DNA of 64,000 bases from a virus, in the IMG/VR virus record IMGVR_UViG_3300042465_009257, positions 109,359-173,358 of that record. One strand, given 5' to 3'. How positions within the stretch are numbered: position 1 is the first letter of the stretch; each line of letters opens with the position of its first letter. The notes beneath the pieces are model-generated. The model saw nothing but the letters and a program-made list of their open reading frames with translations, had not been told where the DNA came from and ran no database searches. This document shows, in pieces, positions 8,573 through 64,000 of this stretch. The position numbers were made by a program, and so were the translations under genes.

Positions 8573-10075
8573 TTATGCTAGAGTGAGGGAGACGGATCTG
8601 ACTACGCCATCAGAGCCTTTCAGTCTGAGAGTTAATGAGGTATTACTAGTTGCCTCGACAACAAGGTCACCGTTGCTAGCTGGAATTACAGATGCCAAGG
8701 GCTGCTGTACGAAAGTTCCATTATTTGTAATTTTAACCGTTTTACCATTTGCGTTCGCTTCAAGTAAATTATCGCATGTAACACTAGTTGAATTAAGAAC
8801 AATTCCTTTATGACCATTTGGAACTGAAACCCCCACCTCAGTAGAGCCAAGGGCGGCTCCAGCAACCATTATTTTAGCTACAGAAAATGTACATACACTT
8901 GATATATTATTAGAATCTAACATTCTTAAAACAGTAGTGCCGCCTAATATAAAATCAATCCCACGATTATCAGCGTAAGATCCGCCTTTCTCCGTCCCAA
9001 TCCTTAGAATATTACTTGTCCAGCCAAATGTCGCCCGGTCAAAATTGGTGGCTGGGGTGGCGTCAGTAGAATTATAAACGCGGAATGTTTGAGCGTTACC
9101 AATATTACGCTGGGCTAGAGTTCCGGTTGCATCTCGAAATAAAAATAAATCGTTGCCGCCGTTGTAATTATTATTTACGTTATTCCACCCAATACGAGCG
9201 GTACTAATTAAGCTAATACCGTTATAGTTCCCAGTTGGATGGTAAATATTATTTCCAATTAATGCCCCATCTGCCCCAGCGATATAAACATTACCGCCTC
9301 CATGGGCAGAAATTCCCGCCCCTCCACCGCAATAGATTAATCCTGATTTATTTACAGTAAACTTACTTATCCCACCAACTTGCAAATCTATCAAATTTGA
9401 TGAAATATTCGACGCCGTATCAGTCACATTCAACTTCACACTTGTAAACAACTGCTGAATCGTCCCCCCGGAAACCCAGGTAGCCGTAGTAGCATTTGCA
9501 TAAGAAACTGAAGTCGTAGTAGAAGCAGTCACCACAAAAGTCCCGTTATATCCAGCTGGATTGATACTCGCGACGACAATAGTAGATCCAACCACTATCG
9601 CGGCACTTTGCGCGGCAAAAGTAATAGTCGCAATCGAACCCGTGCCGCTTGCGCCCGTGACGGTGATATTACTATTCCAAGTTTCGGCGATGTCGAGTTT
9701 GGCCGTTGGCGCGGGATTACCGATACCAATTTTATTATCATTAACAACCAAAGCATTACTTCCGTAAGTCCCCATTGTAATTTTGTCCGTAAAATTAGAT
9801 TCAACTTCAACAATAGGCAGGCCCGCCGCGTCATTGACGGAAAATACAACCCCAGTCACACTATCGGACACGCCGAATAATCTGCCGTAAGAGCCGTCAA
9901 CAGTAAATCTATCCAAGAAGCTTTCCCCGGTAGTGTAGCTGCTTATATTCAAGCCGCCAGCATTATCGTAAGACAATCGCGGCGCGGCGGAAAGGGGGGA
10001 AATTCCGCTGAAATTCGGCGATTGTGAATCGAAAATAATAGCGCCTGAAGCGGGAATCATTAATATATTTGCCAT
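8573..10075 (-). CDS. Tail fibre protein (500 aa)
   Basis: This is a beta-structured fibre with modules shared by the other fibre genes here. The segment around residues 130-250 (AETWNSNITVTGASGTG, GYNGTFVVTAS, SVKLNVTDTASN) recurs in the 12206-15970 gene, and GWTSNILRIGTEKG recurs in 22018-23250. The C-terminus is a short strand-rich knob (NTSLTLRLKGSDGVVRSVSLTLA). It was probably built by exchange of domains between paralogous fibres. No enzymatic motif is seen. Confidence 0.6.
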   Translation of the reverse strand: MANILMIPASGAIIFDSQSPNFSGISPLSAAPRLSYDNAGGLNISSYTTGESFLDRFTVDGSYGRLFGVSDSVTGVVFSVNDAAGLPIVEVESNFTDKITMGTYGSNALVVNDNKIGIGNPAPTAKLDIAETWNSNITVTGASGTGSIATITFAAQSAAIVVGSTIVVASINPAGYNGTFVVTASTTTSVSYANATTATWVSGGTIQQLFTSVKLNVTDTASNISSNLIDLQVGGISKFTVNKSGLIYCGGGAGISAHGGGNVYIAGADGALIGNNIYHPTGNYNGISLISTARIGWNNVNNNYNGGNDLFLFRDATGTLAQRNIGNAQTFRVYNSTDATPATNFDRATFGWTSNILRIGTEKGGSYADNRGIDFILGGTTVLRMLDSNNISSVCTFSVAKIMVAGAALGSTEVGVSVPNGHKGIVLNSTSVTCDNLLEANANGKTVKITNNGTFVQQPLASVIPASNGDLVVEATSNTSLTLRLKGSDGVVRSVSLTLA

Positions 10076-10093
10076 TTTAATTATTTATTAGTT

Positions 10094-10780
10094 TTAGAGT
10101 AATCCAAATCTGGATTTAGTCGCGTTAAAATTTTGTTTGATTTCTTGAGGAGATAAGGCTCTGTTGTAAATAGATGTTTGAGCAATATTACCTTTCCAAA
10201 AACTATTGCCAGCAACACTTCCATTTCCAATCCATGGACCATCAGGAAATCCCGCAGATGATCCAGCAGATGATTGAGATAATAATACTGAATTTACATA
10301 TATTTTAGCGGCTCCATCATAAACTGCGACTGCATTATACCAAGTATTGATTAAAGGCGCATTATTATTATTATTTGTTTGTATAGCTGGACCTAAATAT
10401 AAATTAAATCCATTTGCGCCATTATTTCCGACATTAATTCCAAAAAAAGAACCAATGCCACCTCCAACGTAAACCTTAGGACATGCTATCATTGGAAAAT
10501 TTCCAGCGCCAGAAATAAGATAGACCCAAGAAGATATAGTAAAAAAACTATTAGATGTGATAATAGATGACGTATCTACATAATCATTTGTCCCATCAAA
10601 AACTATATTTCCACCATTAGCGCCACTAAATGTGGAACCATTAATTAATGTCCCATTATTCCCATTCCCGCTCCGATCAAACCAAGTCGCGCCGCTGCCA
10701 GGATAACTTTTCTTATCCGCCGCGTCTAAACATAATACCAAACCATTTGTCACAATATCAGGACTGGCGCTAGAACTCAT
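10094..10780 (-). CDS. LamG-like (concanavalin A-type) adhesin, paralogue 3 of 3 (228 aa)
   Basis: It opens with TNGLVLCLDAADKKSYPGSG and RSGNGNNGTL, then VFDGTNDYVDT, the usual start of LamG/concanavalin A-like lectin domains of the laminin G3 type. YNRALSPQEIKQNFNATK closes the fold. The domain binds carbohydrates or proteins at surfaces. This is the last of three tandem paralogues joined by 4-nt ATGA overlaps, so all three should be made from one mRNA by coupled translation. Confidence 0.75.
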   Translation of the reverse strand: MSSSASPDIVTNGLVLCLDAADKKSYPGSGATWFDRSGNGNNGTLINGSTFSGANGGNIVFDGTNDYVDTSSIITSNSFFTISSWVYLISGAGNFPMIACPKVYVGGGIGSFFGINVGNNGANGFNLYLGPAIQTNNNNNAPLINTWYNAVAVYDGAAKIYVNSVLLSQSSAGSSAGFPDGPWIGNGSVAGNSFWKGNIAQTSIYNRALSPQEIKQNFNATKSRFGLL

Positions 10781-23781: not shown

Positions 23782-25842
23782 TTAAAGTTTATTGTAGTAA
23801 GTACTTAAGGAAACGTTTCTATTGAAGGCTCCTGTACCACCTTGAAATACTCCCACGTTTGTTGAATTAAGCGGAATGAGAATGATTTTTCCACTTGAAA
23901 TCATAACCGCTCCATGAAAAGCACTAACTCCTTTGCCATGCGTTGGACCATCTGTATAAGTATTAGCAACTGGATCGTAAATTCCTATAGCTGTAGAATT
24001 GAAAGGGGCTAAAATAACTTTTCCACTTGGAGTTAAAACTCCTCCGATAAAAGCACTAGCCCCTTTTCCATGCGCTGGGCCATCTGTGTAAGTATTGGCA
24101 ATAGGATCGTAAATGGCTATATTTGTAGAATTGAAAGGAACTAAAATAACTTTTCCACTTGGAGATAAAACCCCTCCGGCAAAAGCACTAGTCCCTTTTC
24201 CATGCGTTGGACCATCTATATAAGTATTAGCAACTGGATCGTAAATTCCTATATTCGTTGAATAATGAGGTATAAAAATCACTTTTCCGCCTGGAGTTAA
24301 AATACCTACAACAAAAGCATATATCCCTTTCCCATGAACTGGACCATCTGTATAAGTATTGGCGACAGGATCATAAATTCCTATATTTGTTGAACTATGA
24401 GGTATTAAAATGACTTTTCCGCTTGGGGTTAAAATAGTTCCAACGAAAGCTCCTGCACCTTTCCCGTGCGTTGGACCATCTGTGTAAGTATTAGCGACAG
24501 GGTCATAAATTCCTATAGTTGTTGAGTTCAAAGAATCCAAAATAATTTTTCCATTTGGGGCTAAAGTTGCTCCTCCACCAAAAGCACTGGTTCCTTTCCC
24601 ATGCGCGGGACCATTTGTATAAGTATTGGCAACAGGGTCGTAAATTCCTATATTCACTGAGTTTCTTGGAATTAAAATAACTTTTCCATCTAGAGTTAAA
24701 ATGCCTCCAGCAAAAGCAGTAGCCCCCTTTCCATGCAACGGCCCATCCACATAAGCATTCGGATCAGTCGGCCCGGTCGCAATCGTCGCGTCAATACTCG
24801 CCTTGTAATCTGGCCAATACGTCGGCCCGACATCCCGCCAGTCAAGTACAACCGGAATACCATACTTTCCGCCCAAATAAAGCTCAACGTTCTGGCGGTC
24901 AGCGTCTGAAAGTGCGGTGGGGAAAACGAGGATTTCGGCAAGATCTATGTTGGAGCATTGAGTGAATGCTGTTGAAGAAGGACAACCAATGGTAATTTCA
25001 ATAGATGGGGTATCGCTTGTATTTCCATCTGTTTGAAAATTTGTAACTTGACCGTTAGCGCCTCCATTTATATATTGAAATAAATTAGAATTAGCATAAT
25101 CCCATACTCCTGTATGAACAAAATACGAAGTTGGGCTGTCATCAATAGAATCTAATCTTCCAAAAACATCTGCATCTAATCTGCGTCCACCACATGCAAG
25201 TTTTGTGGTTCCAAATCCTGAGCCAAAAAATGTTCTTGAGCTTGACGCACCTATACCATTTGTAGCAACAAATACTCCTTTATTATTTACAGAATTTGTT
25301 ATGTATTTGTATACAGCTATGACTGTTGCTCCAGGTACGTTTTGTAACATTCCCAAGCCTGTAGTTAAGGACAGAAGATCATCAACCCCATCAAACCTTC
25401 TTACCTGCCGCCCATTCAGCGCACTCGTAATAATTGCTGGCCGACTCCCCGCCGTCGCTTGTGTAGCGTGCCTATTATTGCCCGAAATATCAGACCAAAT
25501 TGAAACATCCGAACCTGTATCTGAAAGCCACAGTGCGGGCGAAAGAGAAAGGGGACTAAATGCCTCGGCGGATGACGCAAAAACATCAATATTAATCTGA
25601 TTATAAGGATCTGGATTAATAATCTCAAATTTAAGATTAGAACTTGGAAAAACAATAGACTGAGCGAAATTCCCTTTATAAGCTACTAGTCCAGCATAAA
25701 TCCCAGAAGTCGCCCCATCGAAACTATAAGAAACTTTAACAAATGAATTTGGGGAAAACGGGCCTGTTGAAGCCATAACACCTTTCGCGCCAGCAATTGT
25801 AGAAATTATCCCTGTCCCTGATGCTGAATTTAGTGTGATCAT
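23782..25842 (-). CDS. Adhesin: shared N-domain, LamG-like domain and seven-repeat propeller (686 aa)
   Basis: Residues 1-90 are the N-terminal domain shared with two other genes. Residues ~95-325 are a LamG/concanavalin A-like domain (FSPLSLSPALWLSDTGSDVS; VRRFDGVDDLL; LAEILVFPTALSDADRQNVE). Residues ~355-670 are seven copies of a ~45-residue unit carrying HGKGxxAF, GKVILIP and IGIYDPVANTYTDGP. Seven repeats of this size are what a closed seven-bladed beta-propeller needs. The repeats are still very similar, which points to recent amplification. It is likely a receptor-binding or surface-binding virion protein. Confidence 0.7.
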   Translation of the reverse strand: MITLNSASGTGIISTIAGAKGVMASTGPFSPNSFVKVSYSFDGATSGIYAGLVAYKGNFAQSIVFPSSNLKFEIINPDPYNQINIDVFASSAEAFSPLSLSPALWLSDTGSDVSIWSDISGNNRHATQATAGSRPAIITSALNGRQVRRFDGVDDLLSLTTGLGMLQNVPGATVIAVYKYITNSVNNKGVFVATNGIGASSSRTFFGSGFGTTKLACGGRRLDADVFGRLDSIDDSPTSYFVHTGVWDYANSNLFQYINGGANGQVTNFQTDGNTSDTPSIEITIGCPSSTAFTQCSNIDLAEILVFPTALSDADRQNVELYLGGKYGIPVVLDWRDVGPTYWPDYKASIDATIATGPTDPNAYVDGPLHGKGATAFAGGILTLDGKVILIPRNSVNIGIYDPVANTYTNGPAHGKGTSAFGGGATLAPNGKIILDSLNSTTIGIYDPVANTYTDGPTHGKGAGAFVGTILTPSGKVILIPHSSTNIGIYDPVANTYTDGPVHGKGIYAFVVGILTPGGKVIFIPHYSTNIGIYDPVANTYIDGPTHGKGTSAFAGGVLSPSGKVILVPFNSTNIAIYDPIANTYTDGPAHGKGASAFIGGVLTPSGKVILAPFNSTAIGIYDPVANTYTDGPTHGKGVSAFHGAVMISSGKIILIPLNSTNVGVFQGGTGAFNRNVSLSTYYNKL
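23835..24745 (-). repeat. Seven tandem ~135-bp coding repeats (propeller blades)
   Basis: Each unit contains the protein phrases HGKG, GKVI and IYDPVANTYT. Copies differ by scattered substitutions but keep reading frame and length. The array fills the C-terminal half of the 686-aa adhesin. Confidence 0.8.
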
Positions 25843-32642: not shown

Positions 32643-34964
32643 TTAAGCCTTGATTTCGATTAAGTCCGATAAATCAAGAATATTAAATTTTGGTTTGTCC
32701 GCGAGATCTTGAGCATTTGGCAGATCTTCAACGGAAGCTTTCGCTTCTTTCATAAGTTCTGTAGCTTGTTCAATATTTACAGGAGTTTTTTCTTTCTCTT
32801 TACCCGCAAGGATAACGAGTCCGTCCTCTTGTTTCCAAGATTCAAAAGCCGCTTCATCTAGGTCACGGATTTGTTTGGCGATAAGGGAACGAAGTTTTGG
32901 ATCTTCGACATTGTAAACCTCTGAAAGAGAGTTAAAACGTGCGTCAAAAATATCTTGAGCAGCTTGTGCGGCAGCTTGAGCTTCAACTTCGGCAAGACGA
33001 GCGGAAAGCTCTTCAAACTTGGCTTTGGCTTCAGTAGCGTCGGAAAGAGCAGCAGCAAGGCTGGCTTCACTTTCAGCTTTCAAAGTTTGTTCAGTGACGT
33101 AAAGCTCATTGGCCTTAGCGATCTCCGAAGTAATAAAGTCACAGACGGCCTTGGACGCGAACGCCTCGGAGTCTACTCCTTCAATTGCGGCGATAGCCGA
33201 TTTTAGATCTGTAATTTTCATAGGTTGGTTAATAGGAGTTACAATAGGTTTATTAGATGAGGAAATTTTATTTTCACTTTTTTTAATATTTTTTCCAGCA
33301 TAAGATTCCTCTACTTCTTTGGCACTTGCTAGCGTTGGATCAATGCGTAAAAGTTCTGCTTGGGAAAACTCTTTTTCACCATCCCATTCGTAGTCATCCC
33401 CTTGAGCCTTTTTATAGGCATCTTTATCTGGATAGTCATCACTACCTGGCTTTGCAGGTCTGTAATTCTTGCCCATTTTCTTTTTCTTATCACGAATATT
33501 TTCCCAAAGACCTTTCTTCGCGGCCTCAATCTTTTCCATATCTTCCTCGTCTTCCATTTCTGATGGCTCTTGGCTATAAATGACATAGTCATGAATGCTA
33601 GAAACATAATCTTCTGCTAAAGCCGCCATCCCTTGTAGAAAAGGCTCAGAAAGGTTTTCTTTTACAACTGGATCATTAGCATAAGTTAAAATAGTTTCAG
33701 CGTGCTTTTGGATGGAAGAAATAGACCCAAGAACCATTTCCGCAAGATCTTCTTTTAGATCCATCATTTCTTCTTCTACGGAAGCGACAATTTCACTGAC
33801 AGGTTCGCCGCTCCACATTTTGCAACTCCAATAATTAGCTTTCCACTTTGGCCCAGGATTGACATCACAACCATGACGAGAACGGTAAGCTTTTCGACGA
33901 TCAGGATCATCCCGCTTAATTTCCATATTTGGGTCGCCGAACTTTACAGTAACGACATTCCCCTTATCATTTTTAACATAGACACCAAATTTCTTTTTTG
34001 ATCCAGATGGAAGACGGAAAGGTTTATTTAAAACTTTTTCAGCAGCAGAAACTTCAATTTCAAGTTCAATTTTAACCATCTTTTTGCCCTCTTCGTCATC
34101 ATCCTCCATTTCAGGAGATTCTTCTTCTGGTTCTTCCATCTCTGGTTCTTCCATTTCCATTTCTGGATCTTCCATTTCAGAATCGTCCATTTCCATATCA
34201 GGTTCTTTCATTTCCATATCATTTTTATAAGTCAAAATTCCTTTAACATCTGCCGCTGGTTGTAGAACCAAGCCCGCCCCAAGAATAGTAGGCTTTGAAA
34301 TTACCCTGTATAGTGATTGACCATCTGGTGTAATTCCTTTCCCACCGTTGCACCTTAAATATTTAGATAAGCTTTCAACTTCTTTTTCGTCTTCAATAAT
34401 TGTGGCATAAGCAAGATTCCTACTATTTAAAGCGATCTTATAGCTTTGGAATCCAACTTCGAAAGAGGTAGAAATGCTTTGATAATGTGGAGAATCTGGA
34501 TTATCACACTCTTCTACGATTTGATCAATATCTCCAATAACTCTCCAAATAACGGCAGAAGCGGCAAGGTTAAAGGGAGTGGAAAGACCCATCACTTCTT
34601 TTTCAGTCATTAATTTGCTATCAGCATAGCTGGAAAAAGATGCTGAGGTAAGACATCCTACTACTTCTTCTCGATTGTGTTCAATATTAAATTGTTTATA
34701 CTTAATATTCTTAGCCATTTCAATAATATCTGCTGTTAAAACAGCATCGTCATTTAAATTAGCTTGATTGGCTACAGCTAAATTAAAACTGACATAAAGT
34801 AAATCTGGATTTTTATCAATTTCTTCTTTGCTTGGGAGAAGACCGGATAAAGCGGAAATATCCCGCGCCGCTGAAGCAAAAGCGGAAAAACTCTCGAAGT
34901 CTTTGCGTTCCCGGTGTAAAATAGAAGCCTTCGAAGTAAAGGTCGTGCGATATTTAAAATCCAT
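32643..34964 (-). CDS. Prohead protease fused to scaffold (773 aa)
   Basis: Residues ~1-240 look like the phage prohead protease domain (a conserved KYKQFNIEHNREEVVGCLTS has the catalytic-type His, and SISTSFEVGFQSYKI a Ser). Residues ~250-300 are a very acidic M/E/P-repeat linker. Residues ~310-380 contain FGVYVKNDKGNVVTVKFGDP and NPGPKWKANYWSCKMWS, a module I know from prohead proteins of environmental phages. Around residue 505 is a DUF5872-like WENIRDKKKKMG segment. Residues ~590-773 are a coiled-coil scaffold. The fusion would place protease and scaffold in one chain that destroys itself during maturation. Confidence 0.65.
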   Translation of the reverse strand: MDFKYRTTFTSKASILHRERKDFESFSAFASAARDISALSGLLPSKEEIDKNPDLLYVSFNLAVANQANLNDDAVLTADIIEMAKNIKYKQFNIEHNREEVVGCLTSASFSSYADSKLMTEKEVMGLSTPFNLAASAVIWRVIGDIDQIVEECDNPDSPHYQSISTSFEVGFQSYKIALNSRNLAYATIIEDEKEVESLSKYLRCNGGKGITPDGQSLYRVISKPTILGAGLVLQPAADVKGILTYKNDMEMKEPDMEMDDSEMEDPEMEMEEPEMEEPEEESPEMEDDDEEGKKMVKIELEIEVSAAEKVLNKPFRLPSGSKKKFGVYVKNDKGNVVTVKFGDPNMEIKRDDPDRRKAYRSRHGCDVNPGPKWKANYWSCKMWSGEPVSEIVASVEEEMMDLKEDLAEMVLGSISSIQKHAETILTYANDPVVKENLSEPFLQGMAALAEDYVSSIHDYVIYSQEPSEMEDEEDMEKIEAAKKGLWENIRDKKKKMGKNYRPAKPGSDDYPDKDAYKKAQGDDYEWDGEKEFSQAELLRIDPTLASAKEVEESYAGKNIKKSENKISSSNKPIVTPINQPMKITDLKSAIAAIEGVDSEAFASKAVCDFITSEIAKANELYVTEQTLKAESEASLAAALSDATEAKAKFEELSARLAEVEAQAAAQAAQDIFDARFNSLSEVYNVEDPKLRSLIAKQIRDLDEAAFESWKQEDGLVILAGKEKEKTPVNIEQATELMKEAKASVEDLPNAQDLADKPKFNILDLSDLIEIKA

Positions 34965-35000: not shown

Positions 35001-35849
35001 TTAAAATTTCACAACTAAATCTTGATCTGAAAATATTGGCCGAATCAATTTGTTTCCAATACAATCTAAATCATTAATTTTGAAATCACCTTTATTTAAA
35101 AAGAAATAAATATCTGAGAAGACATTAAATTTCGCCGCAGATTTAGGCAGTTCCGATAACGCGATAAATACAGAATCTCCTCCATTCCCAGAAATCGACA
35201 GATTTGAAAATCGATTGTAGTTTGAATGTCTCATAAAAATTCCTTCCTTTTTATTCCCATTAATAGAGCTATAAAGAATAGTATTCTTATCAAAATTTAA
35301 GTCTAAGCTAATCCCTGCGGCCTCATTCTGCGTAGATTCTAAATTATATAATAAACATCCTTCTGATTCATAACCTGCGACTCCATCGAAAAAGTTTTCG
35401 CTGAATACTGAGTTTAGTACAGCAACCCGCCGCGAACCTCTTTCTAAAACCAAGCCGCCCGACCGGCAATTCCGTACCGAGACATTGCTTATAATCACAT
35501 TGTCAGCGTTTCTCACGGAAATTCCGTTATTCCTAATATGGCCGCGCTTTTCAATTTCAAATTGCTGATTGGCTTTATTTCCATCTATCTCAACACCATA
35601 GATAAAAATGTCACGGCTGACCGTGGGAAAATCTTCGTCCGACCCCGCAATTATGACTGGGCAATTCGCGCCGCTTTCAAGGTAAAGTGTGGAGTTATCG
35701 CCGATCAAACTCTGTCCGGATTTCAGGATAATAGGAGTTTTGACGATGGTTACTCCGGGTGGAAGAAAAATTGTATTTGCGTCTGCGCCTACAGGCTTAT
35801 AAGACGGGAACAGGCAAAAAATAAGAATAGCTACAATGGAGGCTTTCAT
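35001..35849 (-). CDS. Secreted right-handed beta-helix protein (282 aa)
   Basis: A signal peptide (MKASIVAILIFCLFPSYKPV, then GAD) precedes a parallel beta-helix: TIFLPPGVTIVKTPIILKSG, then GISVRNADNVIISNVSVRNC, GLVLERGSRRVAVLNSVFSE, GISLDLNFDKNTILYSSING and so on. This is the NosD/pectate-lyase-like form with asparagine ladders. It is encoded between a homing nuclease and the head module, next to the lysis genes, not among the fibres. A secreted glycan-binding or glycan-cleaving enzyme released before or at lysis is a plausible role; the active site is not evident. Confidence 0.6.
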   Translation of the reverse strand: MKASIVAILIFCLFPSYKPVGADANTIFLPPGVTIVKTPIILKSGQSLIGDNSTLYLESGANCPVIIAGSDEDFPTVSRDIFIYGVEIDGNKANQQFEIEKRGHIRNNGISVRNADNVIISNVSVRNCRSGGLVLERGSRRVAVLNSVFSENFFDGVAGYESEGCLLYNLESTQNEAAGISLDLNFDKNTILYSSINGNKKEGIFMRHSNYNRFSNLSISGNGGDSVFIALSELPKSAAKFNVFSDIYFFLNKGDFKINDLDCIGNKLIRPIFSDQDLVVKF

Positions 35850-37123
35850 GATGTTATTTTAATTTTAGATATCAGAGTCCATTTTTTATAATGGTTCGCA
35901 TTGTCACACACAATTCTTCTTAACCCCTGATAGTTAAGATTGTGGTCTTTAGCGAATTGATAAACATTTTCAAATTCATATTCTTTTCCCTCTGGAGATC
36001 TGACTTTGAATAAAAACCTATTGCCGTTCTTACCCAAAAACCAACCAGATAAAGAGTCTATTTCCTTGGAAATAAGAAGTCTTAAATCAGATGAATTAAG
36101 CCCATGATCCAAGGAAAATTTATCAATATTGTCAACTCTAAAGGATATCTTATCTGGTGACGTAACATACTTTTTCATAACAATTTCTGCTCCTGCGATT
36201 CTTGTCCATCCATCAATAACATTAATTTTTCCTTCAAAGAGATGGTAAATACTTCTCCATGGCACATCATACTCTTCCGCAAACTTAATAATAGATTCAA
36301 ACTTAACTACACCAAAACTATCTTTAAATAGGGAAAACTGATTTCTGGGGATTTCAATTCCTGGTAATGTCCACCCCTTAGCTTCCATGAAAGTAGATTT
36401 TAACACTGAAGTGACAGAAACGGGACTTAAATGGTTTTCTTTGCAAAATTTTCTAATATTCGAAAATGAATGAATTCTTCCATCAGGCGACTTTAATTTA
36501 TAAATTGGAATATCAGTTTCTGGTAGACTCCATCCCTTATGTTTCTTTCTTACCCCACTTATGACTGAATTAACTTTAGATTCGATAAGTCCGTGAATTT
36601 GAGAAAAACGACGAACGCTTGTAGAAAACTCATGAATTTTTCCTTCTGGATCTTTTAATTTAATTGTAGATCCACCTCTTCTTTCCATCGCTCGAAGATC
36701 ACACTCCTCTTGAGTAAGAATTTTTCCATATCCCGCAGAATATGTTGATCTACACAAATTCATTCCATTGCCTGTCCAAGGAAATGGCTGTAGCAAATCA
36801 AGGTAAGTTTGTTCAACTGTTGTTACCGCTTCTGGATTTTGAATAGATTCAAGAAGATACCAAGCGAAGCTAGAACCATATTTTTCATACTCAGCCTGAA
36901 GAACACGATTCTCATGCTTTTTATTTTTTAGCAAGCGTATATGATTTCTCAATCTTTTTTTAATATTAGTAGAACTTCCAATATAGACTCTTCCAGTTTT
37001 AACTGACAGGCAAGCATAAACTCCGCACATACAAGTTTTAAGAAAACCCTCTTTAAAAATATCGAAACCTTCTGCTATTAATAGCACAGGTTCAATTTCA
37101 ATGTCCATTAAATCAAATATCAT
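35846..37123 (-). CDS. GIY-YIG homing endonuclease with tandem DNA-binding repeats (425 aa)
   Basis: Residues ~32-125 are a GIY-YIG nuclease: CGVYACLSVKTGRVYIGSS (GVY...VYIG), an arginine helix (NIKKRLRNHIRLLKNKKHEN) and the catalytic Glu in AVTTVEQTYLDL. After that come about five repeats of ~50 residues with the pattern (D/S)PxGxxHxFxxxxxFxxxHxL, then V(L)xGxxxxxKGWxLP, typical of NUMOD-type DNA-binding segments of free-standing homing nucleases. Its start overlaps the lysozyme stop (TAATG) and its end overlaps the beta-helix gene. It is inserted without breaking a gene. Confidence 0.8.
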   Translation of the reverse strand: MIFDLMDIEIEPVLLIAEGFDIFKEGFLKTCMCGVYACLSVKTGRVYIGSSTNIKKRLRNHIRLLKNKKHENRVLQAEYEKYGSSFAWYLLESIQNPEAVTTVEQTYLDLLQPFPWTGNGMNLCRSTYSAGYGKILTQEECDLRAMERRGGSTIKLKDPEGKIHEFSTSVRRFSQIHGLIESKVNSVISGVRKKHKGWSLPETDIPIYKLKSPDGRIHSFSNIRKFCKENHLSPVSVTSVLKSTFMEAKGWTLPGIEIPRNQFSLFKDSFGVVKFESIIKFAEEYDVPWRSIYHLFEGKINVIDGWTRIAGAEIVMKKYVTSPDKISFRVDNIDKFSLDHGLNSSDLRLLISKEIDSLSGWFLGKNGNRFLFKVRSPEGKEYEFENVYQFAKDHNLNYQGLRRIVCDNANHYKKWTLISKIKITS

Positions 37124-39330: not shown

Positions 39331-40461
39331 TTAATTATTTGAAAATTCAGACACTTTGAATCTATTAATTTCACTTAAAGTTGAAGAAAAACCTTTATGT
39401 TCTTTGTGAGAGCCATTAAAAATTTTAGCTAAATTTGATAGTGTTATATCGTTCTCTTCGCAAAAATGATAACGATTTTTAATCTTTACGAAATGCCCCT
39501 CCGAAGAAATTAAATACTCTGGATCGCTTGAAAGTTTCCACCCCTTATAAATTTTTACCTTGCCGTTTAAGACATTTAAAAGAGAACTACACACTAAATT
39601 ATGACGTTTTGCAAATTCTACGTTGTTGACAACTTTTAAAAGCTCTCCGTCAGGGCTTTCTATCCACGGATAAGAAGATTCTGGAAGAGGATTACCCCCT
39701 TTTAAGAACCAGCCACGGAATGAATCTCTTTTCCCTTTAAGTAAATCGTATACCTTATCTTTATGAAGCTTATATTTTTTAATAAAATCGCTTGCGACTG
39801 GCACACTGACCTCTTCACCAGTTGGAGAAACTAAAACAGGGATAGCTTGAAATTCTGATTCTGGTAATGTCCACCCACGATGGCTTTTTATCGAGCCGTT
39901 TGTTAAGTGAGATATTCCATTAGAAGAAATCCCGTGCTTGGAAGCAAAATTCTTAAATGATCCTGAAAATTCATGAGTGACTCCATTTGGGTCCCTAATC
40001 TTTACGGGGTCTAGACTCCCCCTCTTTTTTTGAAGGTAATCCAAACCTCTTTCCCTTTGTCTTGTTTTACCAGCAACCGTGCATATGTTAAATCCAGTCC
40101 CTTCGAATGGCAATAAAACGTCTAAAAATATCTGCTCCAAAGAAAATAGTTCATCTTTATCCTCGACTCGCACTAAAGCGTACCATACAAAAGAATCATT
40201 GCCATATTTGTTATAAGATCGTTGAAGGTAGGAATTACCATGAATATTCTTCCCCAAGAGTCTTTTATGACCATTTATCCTGCGTCTAATATCTGCGGAA
40301 CTCCCTATGTAAAATTTTCCATTTCCTTTACAGTAGGCTGCATACACTGCCATAAAAGTTCCGGAAGCTCTTTTCAAAAAGTCTTCTGAATCAGATAAAA
40401 TAACAAAAGGGTCTACCTCTAATGTTATTTGGTTCCAAAAATTAAAAACCTCGTTATTCAT
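39331..40461 (-). CDS. GIY-YIG homing endonuclease with DNA-binding repeats (376 aa)
   Basis: The nuclease domain (residues ~36-130) has AVYAAYCKGNGKFYIGSSAD, RRRINGHKRLLGKN and ELFSLEQIFLDVLLPF with the catalytic Glu. It is followed by about four to five repeats of the type DPNGVTHEFSGSFKNFASKH and KSHRGWTLPE. It is homologous to the 35846-37123 nuclease, including a short N-terminal extension. It lies between portal and lysis genes as a free-standing element. Confidence 0.8.
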   Translation of the reverse strand: MNNEVFNFWNQITLEVDPFVILSDSEDFLKRASGTFMAVYAAYCKGNGKFYIGSSADIRRRINGHKRLLGKNIHGNSYLQRSYNKYGNDSFVWYALVRVEDKDELFSLEQIFLDVLLPFEGTGFNICTVAGKTRQRERGLDYLQKKRGSLDPVKIRDPNGVTHEFSGSFKNFASKHGISSNGISHLTNGSIKSHRGWTLPESEFQAIPVLVSPTGEEVSVPVASDFIKKYKLHKDKVYDLLKGKRDSFRGWFLKGGNPLPESSYPWIESPDGELLKVVNNVEFAKRHNLVCSSLLNVLNGKVKIYKGWKLSSDPEYLISSEGHFVKIKNRYHFCEENDITLSNLAKIFNGSHKEHKGFSSTLSEINRFKVSEFSNN

Positions 40462-42472: not shown

Positions 42473-44332
42473 TTAATTGATGAAAAATCCCGCGAAGACT
42501 TCTTCATTATCATCATCGTCGCTCATCAATTTTTCATAACATCGCCGAGCATAATTACCTAAAAGAAGGCTAGTGTAGGAATCCTTTCGCGCACGATGTT
42601 TATTTCCAGATTTCGCTTCAGCGGGAAGATCAAAACTAATATTCCCTACTGAGTCTGTTTTTGTTTGAATCAAAGCAAGTTCCTTAGCTGTGTCGGCGAC
42701 AACTTTGTCAACATGTTCGATGAACTCGCGGCGGCGCTCGTCACCTGTAATTGAACTTGAAATCTGGTTAAATTCAAGATCTGGAACGTTCTTCAATAGA
42801 TTAATGTTATAATCAACATCCGCATCACTATAATTGGAAATAGGAGAGGCAAACATAATCTTACTATGCTGAAGGTCGCCCTGCATCATTTCATTAGCAT
42901 CACGAATCCAATTCTTTTTATTGAAAATCTGAGTAAATGCAATATGGCTAGTTTGTTTATTGTATAAGTGCTTTGTTTCCCGATAAGTATCTTCATCAGT
43001 AAAATCTAAGCCAGACATGAAAATCTGTTTTTCATCTGGAACCAAAGAATTATATTCTTCGATAAACCGAGGCCCGCCCGCGTGGTCAAGAATAATTAAA
43101 ACGACATTAAATGAATCCATAAGATAGCGGAAATATTCCACTTTTCTTTTTACTTCACTTTTCGGCGAGGCATAGCCATGAACTAAGGTCGCCACGCCTG
43201 TTCCGTTTCCTGCTAGCTCTAGAACCGAAATTGCAAAGTTATCCGCAGTTTCAGATCCAGCACTGGAGTTCGGGTCAACTGCGATAATATATTCCATTCC
43301 TCTTTTACCTTTAAACCTTACCTTTGGCTCTTCACCAACAGGCACAGTTGATCTAAGAATGTGTTCTACATTATAAAATCCGCCGCTGTCATCAGTGAAA
43401 ATAGCATTATACTCTCTGTCAAATTGTTGAGAAGAAAGAGTTTTTCTGGCGTTCTCAATACTGTCTAAATCTAGTAAATTAGCTGCGGCGCATTTGTAGC
43501 CGAGTCTAAATAAGGAGTGACTTACATGAGCCGCCGTTGGATCATGAATCGTATTTAGATATTGGAGATAAGTATTCTTATAGAGTGGCTGAAATTTATA
43601 AGTAGCAGAAGAAAGACCGATAATTTTATTGTTCTGGTAAACAGTCCTCTCCCACTCCTGCATTTCGCCGCGATCAATCAGGATTTGCTCTGCTTCCGCC
43701 ACTTTTCTTTGCTCTGCTCCATTGCCGCGCTTTACAGCTAAAAATGGAATAATAATATCTGATACAATCTTTTCCGGAACAGAAAGATATTCGTCAATAA
43801 TTACTAAGTTGGCGCGATAACCACGATTCTTTTCTGTTAAAGGGGTCGCCGTAATAGTAGAGGTTCCAATTTTCATTTCCCACCGGTCAGTCCCGCGAGA
43901 AGCTGGTTTTGGTGAACATTGTTTTAAGAATCCGCCCTGTTCAGATTCGATGAACTTTTCCACCTGGTCAAAGATCATCTTTGCTTGACGGAAAGACGCT
44001 GAGCAAATAATTACTTTTGTCCCTGGGTTGAAAAGTGCGTAGAGAACAATAAAAATACTGACTGTGTAACTCTTGCTGAAACCTCTTCCTGCTACAATTA
44101 AATTAAAATCCTTTTTAAACCACGTCCTAATAATAATATCTTGGATGGGGTGAATTTTTCCTAACTTAGGCCCTATCAAAAATTCGGCTGCTAAAAAAGG
44201 ATTACTAGCTAAAAACTTTGTAAACCATATGGCTGCATCCTCCGTACTTATATCACCTTTTACGTCCCGCCAATCGCTATTTATTTTTTCAATATTAATT
44301 TCTGGGGCATGCTCCCCTTCGTGCCAACTCAT
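42473..44332 (-). CDS. terL: Terminase large subunit (619 aa)
   Basis: Residues ~75-90 contain the Walker A-like IVAGRGFSKSYTVSIFIVLY, and residues ~172-180 the Walker B LVIIDEYLS. Further motifs are SSATYKF (coupling) and, in the C-terminal nuclease half, YIIAVDPNSSAG (first catalytic Asp) and VVLIILDHAGGPR (second acidic site). It packages phage DNA into the prohead using ATP and cuts the concatemer. Length is normal for the family. It lies directly before portal. Confidence 0.9.
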   Translation of the reverse strand: MSWHEGEHAPEINIEKINSDWRDVKGDISTEDAAIWFTKFLASNPFLAAEFLIGPKLGKIHPIQDIIIRTWFKKDFNLIVAGRGFSKSYTVSIFIVLYALFNPGTKVIICSASFRQAKMIFDQVEKFIESEQGGFLKQCSPKPASRGTDRWEMKIGTSTITATPLTEKNRGYRANLVIIDEYLSVPEKIVSDIIIPFLAVKRGNGAEQRKVAEAEQILIDRGEMQEWERTVYQNNKIIGLSSATYKFQPLYKNTYLQYLNTIHDPTAAHVSHSLFRLGYKCAAANLLDLDSIENARKTLSSQQFDREYNAIFTDDSGGFYNVEHILRSTVPVGEEPKVRFKGKRGMEYIIAVDPNSSAGSETADNFAISVLELAGNGTGVATLVHGYASPKSEVKRKVEYFRYLMDSFNVVLIILDHAGGPRFIEEYNSLVPDEKQIFMSGLDFTDEDTYRETKHLYNKQTSHIAFTQIFNKKNWIRDANEMMQGDLQHSKIMFASPISNYSDADVDYNINLLKNVPDLEFNQISSSITGDERRREFIEHVDKVVADTAKELALIQTKTDSVGNISFDLPAEAKSGNKHRARKDSYTSLLLGNYARRCYEKLMSDDDDNEEVFAGFFIN

Positions 44333-44362: not shown

Positions 44363-45331
44363 TTAAAAAGTTTCATCAATAATCGGGTATAATTGCATAT
44401 CCTCTTCCGTAGGTATACTCCAATTGTAATTTTTCGTGAGGCTGCTCTTCCTCCTCCCTTCGAAAAAAGTGCGTAAGATTCCACAAGGAACGCTGTATTT
44501 ACTAGCAAACGTTTTAATCACTACGAATCTAGAAATAATCCCAAGATCTTTATTGAGTAGTAACTTTTTATTAAAAAGTCTATCAAGATTTTTTTGGTGT
44601 TCGGGCAATGGATTTTCAAGATGATAGCCTTTAGTATTGGAATATTTACCTTGGCAAACTAAGACTACAGAGCTTTCAGGTGCGCCTATTTTTCTTGCGA
44701 ATTCGGCCATATTATCGAATATGATTAATTCCTTTTCGGGGGAGAGCATGCGATACTCTCTTTTAACTACGTGAAACGAGGGGTTGACTGATTTCCAACC
44801 TTTGCAGGATTTCTCCGCTCCGGTTACAACATTAGATATACCTTGTCTGGGTAGTCCGCGCTCTTCGCAAAATTGACTTAAATTTTTCCCCTTAATTAAA
44901 TTTCCTTCGGGGTCAAGAATTTCGAACTCTTTTGCTTTAGCGTGATTTTCTCTGTATACTCCTGGGTATTCTTCAATAGACTGGTCATGCCTAAGATTGT
45001 AACCATCCTGAAAATACATAGCTTTTAAATTTACTATATATTCTGACTCTAGACTCAATAATGGTTCTCCATAACTTTTAAGCTCCAAAATTTCAAAAGT
45101 AAAGCAGTCCTCTCCATGCTTGTTAAAAGAATGCTGCAAATAAGGACAACAGTGTATATTTTGCCTTAAGTCGCTCCTGTGTTTTGACCATCTCTTGTAA
45201 AACCCCTGTCTATCAGCAGCCTTTCCAATATAAAATCTTCCCGTTTTGCGATTTGTTATCTTGTAAATTCCATTTGTTCTTGGCCAAAATCGTTTGAAGT
45301 TGGAATTCATATGAAAAATCACGCCTATCAT
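44363..45331 (-). CDS. GIY-YIG homing endonuclease (322 aa)
   Basis: The domain at residues ~18-115 is clear: NGIYKITNRKTGRFYIGKAA, YKRWSKHRSDLRQN, and PLLSLESEYIVNLKAM with the catalytic Glu. C-terminal repeats contain EILDPEGNLIKGKNLSQFCE and SCKGWKS-type segments. The ATG at 45331 overlaps the stop of the ERCC4-type gene (TAATG); another in-frame ATG is at 45310. It is inserted between the ERCC4-type nuclease and the terminase genes. Confidence 0.8.
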   Translation of the reverse strand: MIGVIFHMNSNFKRFWPRTNGIYKITNRKTGRFYIGKAADRQGFYKRWSKHRSDLRQNIHCCPYLQHSFNKHGEDCFTFEILELKSYGEPLLSLESEYIVNLKAMYFQDGYNLRHDQSIEEYPGVYRENHAKAKEFEILDPEGNLIKGKNLSQFCEERGLPRQGISNVVTGAEKSCKGWKSVNPSFHVVKREYRMLSPEKELIIFDNMAEFARKIGAPESSVVLVCQGKYSNTKGYHLENPLPEHQKNLDRLFNKKLLLNKDLGIISRFVVIKTFASKYSVPCGILRTFFEGRRKSSLTKNYNWSIPTEEDMQLYPIIDETF

Positions 45332-50163: not shown

Positions 50164-50979
50164 TTAAGAAATAATTTTAAACAGATTTCCTCTCCTAGAG
50201 GGTTTATCCAATTTACTTGACCTTGAAACGGAGTTCCAAGTATCTCCTGTGTAAAGCGTGGCATCCTTAATAGAACGAAAAGATTTAATAATGTTACTAT
50301 TTTCATCTATAAGATTAACAATTGTGTAGGAGACACGCAAGTTTTTTTTAAACCCTTGAATTTTATCGCCTCTGTATTCAAGGAAAAACATAAAACCATT
50401 TGTAGATTTTTGCCTTTTCCGATTAACCTGTAAACTATTTTCTCTATTAGCTATTTCACTAATAGTCCTTTGATTTACACCTAAATCTCTTGAGCAGTCA
50501 GCCATGCAGTCATATTTTTTGTAAAACTCTCCATCAATAGTATAAGCGAAAACTTTAACCGCTTTTGGATTTAATGCACCTTTCCGATTCTTAGATGTGT
50601 TATTTTTTCTCATATTGGCCCGAGCTTCATCCGTATATATATAACCACTTTCTTTTTCCCCGCCATCTGTCAAATTGCACAGAGTTCCCGTCCCAAGGTC
50701 CTTCCTCCCATATAGTTTAATAAATTCTATCTCTTTATTTAAAATAAAAGACTGGTCTTCGCTTTCAAACAAAATTTGGACTTTTCGACCGCCTTTTTTT
50801 ACAGTGTTTTTCCATAATTTGGATCTTCCAGCCTTCATTTCGTAACCTCTTTGATAACGACTTTTCTCAGATTTATAGTTTTTAACCGTCCCTTTCCCAA
50901 TATATATAACTTCATTTTTATCCAAGCGGATATGTCGATAGAGGTAATAACGCTTTCCCTCCTGTTGTTTTTGATGCAT
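50164..50979 (-). CDS. GIY-YIG-type homing endonuclease with NUMOD segments (271 aa)
   Basis: The N-terminus has a variant GIY-YIG core (RYYLYRHIRLDKNEVIYIGK). Then YIYTDEARANMRKNNTSKNR matches a NUMOD3-like DNA-binding motif, and VKVFAYTIDGEFYKKYDCMA with GVNQRTISEIANR a NUMOD1-like motif; a second NUMOD1-like copy is near residues 225-250. It differs in architecture from the other three GIY-YIG proteins here, so it arrived separately. It has its own late promoter (50992-51018). Confidence 0.75.
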   Translation of the reverse strand: MHQKQQEGKRYYLYRHIRLDKNEVIYIGKGTVKNYKSEKSRYQRGYEMKAGRSKLWKNTVKKGGRKVQILFESEDQSFILNKEIEFIKLYGRKDLGTGTLCNLTDGGEKESGYIYTDEARANMRKNNTSKNRKGALNPKAVKVFAYTIDGEFYKKYDCMADCSRDLGVNQRTISEIANRENSLQVNRKRQKSTNGFMFFLEYRGDKIQGFKKNLRVSYTIVNLIDENSNIIKSFRSIKDATLYTGDTWNSVSRSSKLDKPSRRGNLFKIIS

Positions 50980-61707: not shown

Positions 61708-61967
61708 AATTGAAATGTTGTTTTGCTTTTGGTTTTTTGAGCGGAGCTTGTAAAGGGGATGGATAAGATAAAGGGGGGATAAAAAGAATATGAACGGTTT
61801 GGATTTTTGGGAGGTCGAGAGGTGAGTGTCCCCCCGGCGTTCCGTTAGGGTCTTGTTAGGACTAGCAACTATCAATACCCGGCCTAACACTAGCACGCTA
61901 ACACTAGCACCCTCACACTAGCACTAGCGTCCTGACAGTGTGCCGTGCTGCCGCTCCAGGCCCTAAC
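61708..61967. other. Non-coding stretch with dense G[T/C]TAG motif
   Basis: No convincing gene is seen. From 61844 the short words GTTAG, CTAAC and CTAGC become very frequent (10 within 61844-61967), continuing through the two genes to the right. A 69-codon frame on the minus strand (61687-61896) has no gene character. Confidence 0.6.
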
Positions 61968-62005
61968 ACAAAAGGCCCCGCTACCCTTTCGGGCAACGGG
62001 GCTTT
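61968..62005 (-). terminator. Terminator behind the AAA+ operon
   Basis: On the minus strand AAAGCCCCG...CGGGGCCTTTT can form a stem (GCCCCG/CGGGGC plus G-T and A-T pairs) followed by TTTT. The stem also ends in A/T runs on the plus strand and may act in both directions. Confidence 0.7.
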
Positions 62006-62012
62006 GCTAGTG

Positions 62013-62423
62013 TTAGTTGTAGTCGTTTTCGTCCTGCTCCACGATGACAAGCGGACCTGTTAGGACAGCGCCCTCTGTGGGACCGTCCTCCTCAATGTTA
62101 GGACTGGCGTTGATTGCCGCTTGTGTTAGGCTGCCATTCAATGCAGCCCGGAACATATCGTCTTTGTTAGGATATGCCTGTTTCATCGTAGCCGCCCATA
62201 CGGGGGCTTTAGTGTTAGGATTGAGACGCCGCCACTCGATTTCGTTAGGACCATACTTGGCTAGAATCGAAGGTGGAACGTCCAACGTGTTAGGACGAGC
62301 GGGAGGATCAGGAACCTCCGCTTGTGTTAGGGTGAAGCCTTCCGATCTCAGGAAGTCTAACATCTGCTTGACTTTGCTAGTGTCATCCGTTGCCCGGATT
62401 GCCAGGTTAATATTGATCTTCAT
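62013..62423 (-). CDS. Protein of unknown function in the motif-rich segment (136 aa)
   Basis: It starts MKININLAIRATDDTSKVKQ, a possible strand-helix, then LDFLRSEGFTLTQAEVPDPP and a region with repeated P-N and L-T pairs (the coding result of the CCTAAC/CTAAC motif). It has no named family. It lies downstream of the AAA+ gene in one operon, ending at the terminator at 61968-62005. Confidence 0.55.
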   Translation of the reverse strand: MKININLAIRATDDTSKVKQMLDFLRSEGFTLTQAEVPDPPARPNTLDVPPSILAKYGPNEIEWRRLNPNTKAPVWAATMKQAYPNKDDMFRAALNGSLTQAAINASPNIEEDGPTEGAVLTGPLVIVEQDENDYN

Positions 62424-62469
62424 GTTAGGGTGGGTTGTGCCGGGGAGGATCTCCCTCCCCGGCGTTATG

Positions 62470-63477
62470 TTAGGCAGTCACCACGGCGACCGTCTTCTTT
62501 GCTGTTAGGCTCTGGAGGTATGCGACCCCTGCCGAACTAGCAGCTTTCCTACTTTGGTTAGTGTTGAGGACAAAATCCGCTTGTCTCAACTCGTCTAACA
62601 CCTCTTTCGCTTCCTTGCTAGTCGCGCCTTGCATCGGCGTGGCTGCTACCTCTTGCACCTGACGCCCGGAAGCGTTAGTAGCAAGGAATGTTAGGACGGC
62701 GATGTGCTCCGTGTTCCAGCCGTCGCGGTAATAACCGCTAGCCTTAAGGGCTTTCCTAGCACCTTCTACCGTGAAGATGTCTAGCTCATTAGTGATGAAC
62801 TGCGCCCTAACATCTTGGATCTGCTTCTTTATCGCCCTTGCAAAGGGGCGAACGTTTTTACAGTATGTTAGGGTGGCTTCCTTGGTTGGCATCTTCTCGT
62901 TAGGCATGTAGACTGCCCACATGTTAGTGAAGATGCTAACTCTTTCGTCCAGCTCGTAAGGCATCAGCTTGAGTTCCGTTAGGCGACCACTAGATCCGCA
63001 CAAGGCACCGTCGCCGAGAGTTTCGTTAGTGGCCATGATCACCATGAAGTTAGAGGGTGAAAGCTCTAACTCATACTCGACTCCTTTGGAATCGTGTATT
63101 GTTAGGGTCTTGCGCTCCCCGCCAAGCTCTAGCAATTGTTTCAAAAAGGTCTTGAGACCCTTGTCTAACACTTGCACCTCGTCAAGAAAGAATACATTCT
63201 TGTTAGAGAAGCTAGTACAATTCTGAATCATGAGCGATTTGAATTGCGATAGGGTCACCCCTACGCTAACGTTGTGGGATTTGAACCCCGCAACCTCTAG
63301 CAACTTCATGCAGATGTTAGCGACCCGTGTTTTCCCCAGACCGGCGAAACCAGTTAGGAGAACGTGTTGGATAGGAGCGGCACCCATAGCGGCATCCCAT
63401 AGGATGGTCACTAACTTGACGAACAAGTTAGGCTGGAGCATTTCCTTCACGGCATTTTTGATAGTCTCGATTTGCAT
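62470..63477 (-). CDS. AAA+ ATPase, RuvB/MoxR-like (335 aa)
   Basis: I chose the ATG at 63477 (MQIETIKNAVKEMLQPNLFV); the longer reading to 63519 needs a TTG. Walker A is VLLTGFAGLGKTRVANICMK (~residues 38-58), Walker B NVFFLDEVQVLDKGL (~95-110), sensor 1 NFMVIMATNETLGDG (~140-155), and a C-terminal helical lid follows with an SGRQVQEVAAT segment. The architecture resembles RuvB-type branch migration or MoxR-type chaperone ATPases. Its coding sequence is saturated with the CTAAC motif. Confidence 0.7.
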   Translation of the reverse strand: MQIETIKNAVKEMLQPNLFVKLVTILWDAAMGAAPIQHVLLTGFAGLGKTRVANICMKLLEVAGFKSHNVSVGVTLSQFKSLMIQNCTSFSNKNVFFLDEVQVLDKGLKTFLKQLLELGGERKTLTIHDSKGVEYELELSPSNFMVIMATNETLGDGALCGSSGRLTELKLMPYELDERVSIFTNMWAVYMPNEKMPTKEATLTYCKNVRPFARAIKKQIQDVRAQFITNELDIFTVEGARKALKASGYYRDGWNTEHIAVLTFLATNASGRQVQEVAATPMQGATSKEAKEVLDELRQADFVLNTNQSRKAASSAGVAYLQSLTAKKTVAVVTA

Positions 63478-63519
63478 ATTGTTAGTATTATCTATGGTGC
63501 GGTTGGTTAGTAATTGCAC

Positions 63520-63792
63520 CTTGCTGCCCTAACCTTGCGGCAGGGCAGGCTGGTAAAATTGACTATCAAATTTTCTAGGCTTACCGCTCCCCTAATCGTT
63601 AGGATCATCGCCGGGCTTTCCAGGGCAGGACTTGTCAGGATGGAGCGCCTGCCAGGCACACCCACCGGAAAGAGTCGATGCGTTCCGTTAGGATCGGGCC
63701 GCTCTTTCGTTTAACGCTTTCCAGCGCACAGCCAGTCTACACGACCCGGAAGGGATTGCAAATTCTTTTTTTTCTTTTTTTTCTTTTTCTTT
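63520..63792. other. Non-coding region with long T-rich tract
   Basis: No gene is seen upstream of the AAA+ gene. From about 63762 a pyrimidine tract of T runs and single Cs reaches 63792. GTTAG words still occur at 63598 and 63687. It could be a DNA-unwinding element or part of an origin. Confidence 0.5.
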
Positions 63793-63811: not shown

Positions 63812-63820
63812 TGCGACCCC

Positions 63821-64000
63821 CCACGCGCCTGCCCCCACGCGCCTGCCCCCACGCGCCTGCCCCCACGCGCCTGCCCCCACGCGCCTGCCCCCACGCGCCT
63901 GCCCCCACGCGCCTGCCCCCACGCGCCTGCCCCCACGCGCCTGCCCCCACGCGCCTGCCCCCACGCGCCTGCCCCCACGCGCCTGCCCCCACGCGCCTGC
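63821..64000. repeat. 14-bp tandem repeat array (12.9 copies visible)
   Basis: The unit CCACGCGCCTGCCC repeats without visible change from 63821 to the window end. It is 86 percent G+C in an otherwise AT-rich region. Translated frames give artificial G/A/R-rich repeats (14 codons per 42 bp), so it is not a gene. It may be an iteron array or a terminal or assembly repeat; it runs off the end. Confidence 0.9.

Follow-up and report, generated by a model that had tools for sequence, protein, structure and literature searches.

A two-gene cassette in a tailed-phage contig is saturated with the word GYTAG, whose GTTAG form is avoided in the rest of the genome

Several systems are known in which a short DNA word is either iterated or purged. 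The DNA uptake sequences of Neisseria and Pasteurellaceae are short iterated words of 9–12 bp, found genome-wide at about one per kb. Restriction-site avoidance leaves the opposite trace, namely the depletion of a word on both strands, beyond what composition and codon use explain, over the whole molecule. In cyanobacteria, the palindromic word HIP1, GCGATCGC, occurs genome-wide about once per 1000 nt (PMC4390886). In the Cluster A mycobacteriophages, such as L5 and Bxb1, stoperators are repressor sites dispersed genome-wide, some of them within genes, which act as roadblocks and are biased in their orientation with respect to transcription (PMC6550527, PMC9283540).

The phage tract described here resembles each of these systems only in part. 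Stoperators are, by analogy, the nearest known way of working; however, they are 13-bp sites with up to about 30 copies per genome, whereas here a 5-bp core, GYTAG, is present in 61 copies within 1.85 kb and is purged elsewhere, which departs from the roughly 10–50 genome-wide copies of an asymmetric 12–16 bp site that characterize the stoperator class. An earlier sequence-only reading of this DNA had likened the motif to uptake signals and to HIP1, and the likeness holds insofar as all are iterated short words, although both of these are far less dense and genome-wide. The cassette has no uptake context, and HIP1, which is tied to a DNA-methylating activity, is overrepresented over whole replicons, whereas the present word is confined to one cassette and ranks first among the avoided 5-mers of the other 171 kb. 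As in restriction-site avoidance, a specific 5-mer has been purged from both strands of the chromosome beyond composition and codon use, but this is found in the rest of the phage only; the cassette is saturated with the same word, which restriction-site avoidance by itself leaves unexplained. No named system accounts for the pattern of saturation, even spacing, substitution of GCTAG for GTTAG, avoidance elsewhere and related arrays in related contigs, and the tract departs in defining features from stoperators, from HIP-type words and from plain restriction avoidance. Searches of the literature on GTTAG or CTAAC in phages returned nothing relevant.

The record (IMGVR_UViG_3300042465_009257) has 173,358 bp, and the window, the whole stretch of 64,000 nucleotides under analysis, corresponds to its bases 109359–173358. 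It is a tailed-phage contig encoding a terminase and portal- and capsid-like proteins, and the terminase distantly matches Microcystis and Bacillus phages. The tract is a two-gene minus-strand operon close to the record's right end (Table 1), framed by copies of a 13-bp direct repeat absent from the remainder of the contig. To its right there is only a short T-rich stretch followed by a perfect 14-bp tandem repeat, CCCCCACGCGCCTG, with 13 copies at 63818–64000, within which the contig terminates. An Rfam search gave no match. Other features of the phage include 6.6 copies of 132-bp tandem repeats within a large protein gene (23858–24736), several genes that by eye resemble GIY-YIG homing endonucleases (35846–37123, 39331–40461, 44363–45331 and 50164–50979) and, at bases 14.9–20 kb of the record (L009:14879–20000), degenerate 12-bp repeats, TACAGAATCCCN, which fill long noncoding stretches and constitute a second iterated word within this phage.

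Table 1. Features of the GYTAG tract, in positions of the window
Feature	Position	Strand	Remarks
Left copy of the 13-bp direct repeat GCGTTCCGTTAGG	61837..61849	+	Contains the first site of the tract
GYTAG-saturated tract	61844..63691		44 GTTAG/CTAAC and 17 GCTAG/CTAGC; assessed by shuffles, spacing and allowed-site counts
Downstream noncoding array	61844..61967		14-bp units CTAACACTAGCACS at 61884–61925; sites 6–22 bp apart
Hairpin GGCCCCGCTACCC/GGGCAACGGGGC and T run	61972..62004	-	Likely operon terminator; z -2.67
Gene of the 136-aa orphan protein	62013..62423	-	9 GTTAG/CTAAC vs 3.5 shuffled
Intergenic hairpin, 10-bp stem	62439..62463		Separates the two genes; z -4.69
RuvB-like AAA+ ATPase gene	62470..63519	-	24 GTTAG/CTAAC and 9 GCTAG/CTAGC; Pfam, PHROG and PDB matches
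Upstream noncoding region	63520..63691		Sparser sites: 63529, 63598, 63687
Right copy of the 13-bp direct repeat GCGTTCCGTTAGG	63680..63692	+	Contains the last site of the tract

The density first reported for the motif was confirmed. GTTAG/CTAAC, with 44 copies against 3.5 expected, is the most enriched of the 512 5-mers in the tract, and the borders of the tract are sharp. For GCTAG/CTAGC, the recount gives 17 copies rather than 16, against 3.8 expected. Synonymous codons were then permuted inside each gene in 2000 trials, and the GTTAG/CTAAC counts were never attained, either in the ATPase gene (24 observed, 6.3 shuffled, maximum 14) or in the orphan gene (9 observed, maximum 8 in the shuffles); codon usage was thus rejected as the cause. 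For GCTAG, an excess over the shuffles is confined to the ATPase gene (9 vs 3.3, reached in 6 of the 2000), and the orphan gene is at the shuffled level (2 vs 1.9). The observation is real, and stronger than first described.

The extent of saturation was evaluated at allowed positions, i.e., those where a site is obtainable by synonymous choice given the present protein sequences. Keeping in mind that these positions derive from proteins possibly already shaped by the motif, 25 of 27 are occupied in the cassette by sense CTAAC and 8 of 18 by sense GTTAG, an inequality of orientation that the allowed positions also display; three of the unoccupied GTTAG positions have GCTAG instead. All the allowed but unoccupied GTTAG/CTAAC positions lie 18 bp or less from an occupied GYTAG. 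In the remainder of the phage, 14 of 898 and 14 of 1120 allowed positions are occupied. The gaps in the coding part are also more even than expected from random placement, with a coefficient of variation of 0.40 vs 0.84 (P<0.0002) and a largest gap of 60 bp vs a mean maximum of 129, and the evenness persists against a null restricted to allowed positions (P 0.0004 and 0.0024). GCTAG sits between GTTAG sites, the nearest being 27.7 bp away vs 13.3 by chance, and the spacing of about 31 bp noted earlier holds for the two forms pooled (32.9 bp within the genes). Upstream of the genes, where no protein constrains the sequence, the gaps widen to 69 and 89 bp, and in the downstream array the sites are tighter; therefore, a single uniform spacing rule fails. 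Helical phasing gave no clear signal in the site spacing.

These properties bear on whether the tract could be a functionless repeat array that spread by duplication into adjacent DNA. A genuine array of 14-bp units does adjoin the genes, but the genic sites mostly have unrelated flanks, occupy permitted frames, are uncrowded and are not in tandem, which makes such spreading the least credible of the explanations considered, with hardly any probability left to it. Two further candidates were rejected. Telomere-like TTAGG repeats do not agree with non-tandem genic sites, and the C-rich strand of the G/C-rich end repeat runs 5'->3' endward; integron attC cores (GTTRRRY/RYYYAAC) are similar to the GCCTAAC at the stop codon, but most of the sites misfit the 7-mer.

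Far from sharing this density, the other 171 kb have GTTAG as the most depleted of the 512 5-mers, whether judged by composition, by a third-order Markov model or by codon shuffling, and it ranks 1 among avoided 5-mers in every 50-kb block. It occurs 28 times in genes vs 175.5 expected and 10 times in spacers vs 56; the depletion in genes reaches 0.16 of the codon-shuffled expectation (0.17 and 0.15 by sense). Its one-letter neighbours CTAAT, GTTAC, ATTAG and GTTAT remain at 0.9–1.0 of expectation, and GCTAG at about 0.76. Five control phages (T4, Cellulophaga phi14:2, crAss001, Microcystis MaeS and Bacillus Stahl) showed no avoidance of GTTAG, with values of 0.77–0.93. Since both senses are equally avoided and the neighbours are spared, it is DNA that is recognized, and specifically so, and an RNA-level motif is unlikely; since spacers and both strands are depleted, double-stranded DNA, and not RNA, is the target.

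The 39 GTTAG sites left over outside the tract (record bases 19144–167957) cluster in same-orientation blocks (runs P 0.049), which might be a trace of an orientation-dependent enzyme. GTAC is strongly avoided throughout the record, the cassette included, a pattern suggestive of a further restriction pressure. In the Microcystis phage MaeS (bases 1–50000, L268), GGGAC and CCAGG are wholly missing, and in another phage genome, G006, CCAGG is found 0 times vs 186 expected.

One way to account for the avoidance is that the host cuts GTTAG, a 5-bp asymmetric site as in Type III or BREX-type systems, while the cassette stems from another element with its own use for the word and reached the contig as a chimera or by a recent junction. 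A 6-fold depletion affecting both strands is what restriction sites typically show, other 5-mers are entirely absent from MaeS and G006, and the leftover sites tend toward same-orientation blocks; in addition, the GC content changes at the tract border and the contig ends in a tandem repeat, a frequent spot for assembly trouble. However, the explanation requires that the same word be hit upon twice, a 1-in-512 coincidence, and it has to deal with several links between cassette and phage. Three contigs retrieved through GTTAG patterns alone (L024, L270 and L271) encode a PhoH 45% identical to that of this phage, together with a second shared neighbour, and have intergenic CTAACACTA arrays downstream of a terminator, as in this phage and similar to its downstream array. 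Moreover, GTAC avoidance is common to cassette and phage, and Shine-Dalgarno sites are lacking in both (14 of 95 phage genes vs 10.6 by chance). Taken together, the related arrays, the shared GTAC avoidance and the missing Shine-Dalgarno sites, along with the fact that avoidance and saturation concern one and the same word, speak against a chimera formed by chance. Restriction combined with a foreign piece is accordingly regarded as unlikely, and the earlier proposal that the segment came from another replicon is weakened by the same evidence. A search of the phage open reading frames found no methyltransferase motif.

The larger gene of the cassette encodes an ATPase of 349 aa counted from a GTG, the likelier start being the ATG ending at 63477. 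The protein matches Pfam RuvB_N (PF05496) with an E-value of 2.4e-7 and 31.1 bits, above the curated cut-off of 27, as well as a PHROG clamp loader (6.7e-8) and RuvB chains in the PDB (4e-5). AF2 models built from single sequences had pLDDT of 37–38, too poor to use, so that the fold of the ATPase (37) is unconfirmed. The second protein, whose stop codon falls within CTAAC, belongs to no family in Pfam or PHROGs and has no relative in 690 genomes of two phyla (396 and 294). When both proteins were sought in IMG/VR, INPHARED and PLSDB, nothing beyond distant RuvB was found, DNA-level searches included; neither gene was found in copy in other IMG/VR records, and the ATPase was not found in seven array-bearing records. 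Neither protein looks like a repressor in Pfam or PHROGs. The AAA+ protein is possibly involved as a partner, and that it binds the motif is purely conjectural.

Weaker cases were found in other phages, with the same core and intergenic arrays and in genes different from those of the cassette. In G009 (IMGVR_UViG_3300030101_003189), a GYTAG array at 34270–34480 is followed by a DUF932 gene with 12 sites vs 2.96 shuffled, a second gene with 4 vs 2.1 and a third with 9 vs 2.6, the first and third counts each being reached in 0 of 2000 shuffles; elsewhere the word is at background level. In G006, a GTTAG cluster lies in and around the terminase-small gene, beside terL (TerS 8 vs 1.7). The same neighbourhood, at about 15.3–16.1 kb of G006 (L099:6667–7560), shows inverted repeats of the CTAACAAATTTTGTTAG type within and next to the terminase-small gene and is likely a pac region. 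A further locus, L114, has 87 sites across 3.9 kb of early small genes, with coding enrichment in some of them; it was dropped as a twin of the cassette, given its uneven spacing and a CGACC neighbour only weakly enriched. Iterated CGACC adjoins the GTTAG-rich region of L114 at 9490–10250, weakly above codon shuffles, and this stretch encodes a protein paralogous, at 34% identity, to the product of one of the genes there. A survey of 2260 open reading frames, taken from loci themselves chosen by GTTAG patterns, gave 7 enriched cases, some of them repetitive, vs 1 for a reversed control motif. Among the matches listed in a GTDB scan, there was no bacterial genome of such density. Avoidance of GTTAG elsewhere in the genome is absent in G006 and G009; therefore, this phage is thus far the only one with both halves of the pattern, and saturation and avoidance may be separate systems.

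The position of the G006 cluster raises the question of packaging or replication, in which the tract would be a pac- or origin-like loading region for an initiator or a terminase, with ectopic sites avoided. Its location at the contig end and a RuvB-like or clamp-loader-like ATPase, which suits replication, are in line with this, and signals inside genes have precedent, as the lambda ori lies within O and the P22 pac within the terS gene. On the other hand, the terminase gene of this phage is about 17 kb off (window 42473–44332), such signals would not require the purging of lone sites elsewhere, and 61 sites in 1.85 kb are excessive; to our knowledge, no origin or pac site has anywhere near that number over such a length. 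A packaging or replication signal is thus considered quite improbable.

The explanation that we hold as the most plausible, still tentatively, is that a predicted activity binding or modifying double-stranded DNA at GYTAG covers the cassette and is confined there by avoidance elsewhere. The putative recognition core would be GYTAG, with TGTTAGG/CCTAACA as its best form, and the putative activity would be present in the infected cell. The cassette would have been selected for sites over its whole transcription unit, at about one per 33 bp, reading frames included and with the proteins paying, while the remaining chromosome would have been selected to lose sites, restricting the activity to one locus. 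A protein would bind these sites, and their occupancy would form a continuous nucleoprotein tract that might silence or mark the cassette, as stoperators do; a candidate covering some 15–30 bp per site and densely lining the transcription unit would fit. Such a factor would read GYTAG either way round, so each cassette site would be useful unless another lay within about 18 bp, and strays would be costly. Among the suggestions of the sequence-only reading, that of a recognition site for an acting protein, in itself putative, fits best with the two orientations, the interchangeable GYTAG variants, the even spacing and the purge on both strands. The full pattern is known from this single contig.

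The purge together with the dense cluster would also be compatible with a decoy, in which the near-end tract titrates a GTTAG-binding defence protein of the host and the remainder offers no targets; the spacing would even let each site be bound separately. However, a decoy has no need of coding sequence, yet the sites are imposed on two proteins, and if the defence protein were a nuclease, the phage would be cut right at its decoy, which renders this possibility very unlikely.

Under the preferred explanation of a GYTAG-reading activity confined to the cassette, the data suggest that the infected cell contains a factor that reads the word and must act on the cassette alone. If this is true, selection on a 5-bp word can overrule codon choice and bend protein sequence across whole genes, and the word count alone could partition a phage genome. 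The tract would also provide a direct handle on a sequence-specific DNA-reading factor whose site is given in advance, serving as bait, with the avoided chromosome as a natural control. The broader notion of a sequence-coded mark, under which cassette and chromosome of one phage would meet opposite treatment from a single DNA-reading activity, is doubtful for now; if true, G009 and G006 would widen it into an undescribed phage strategy.
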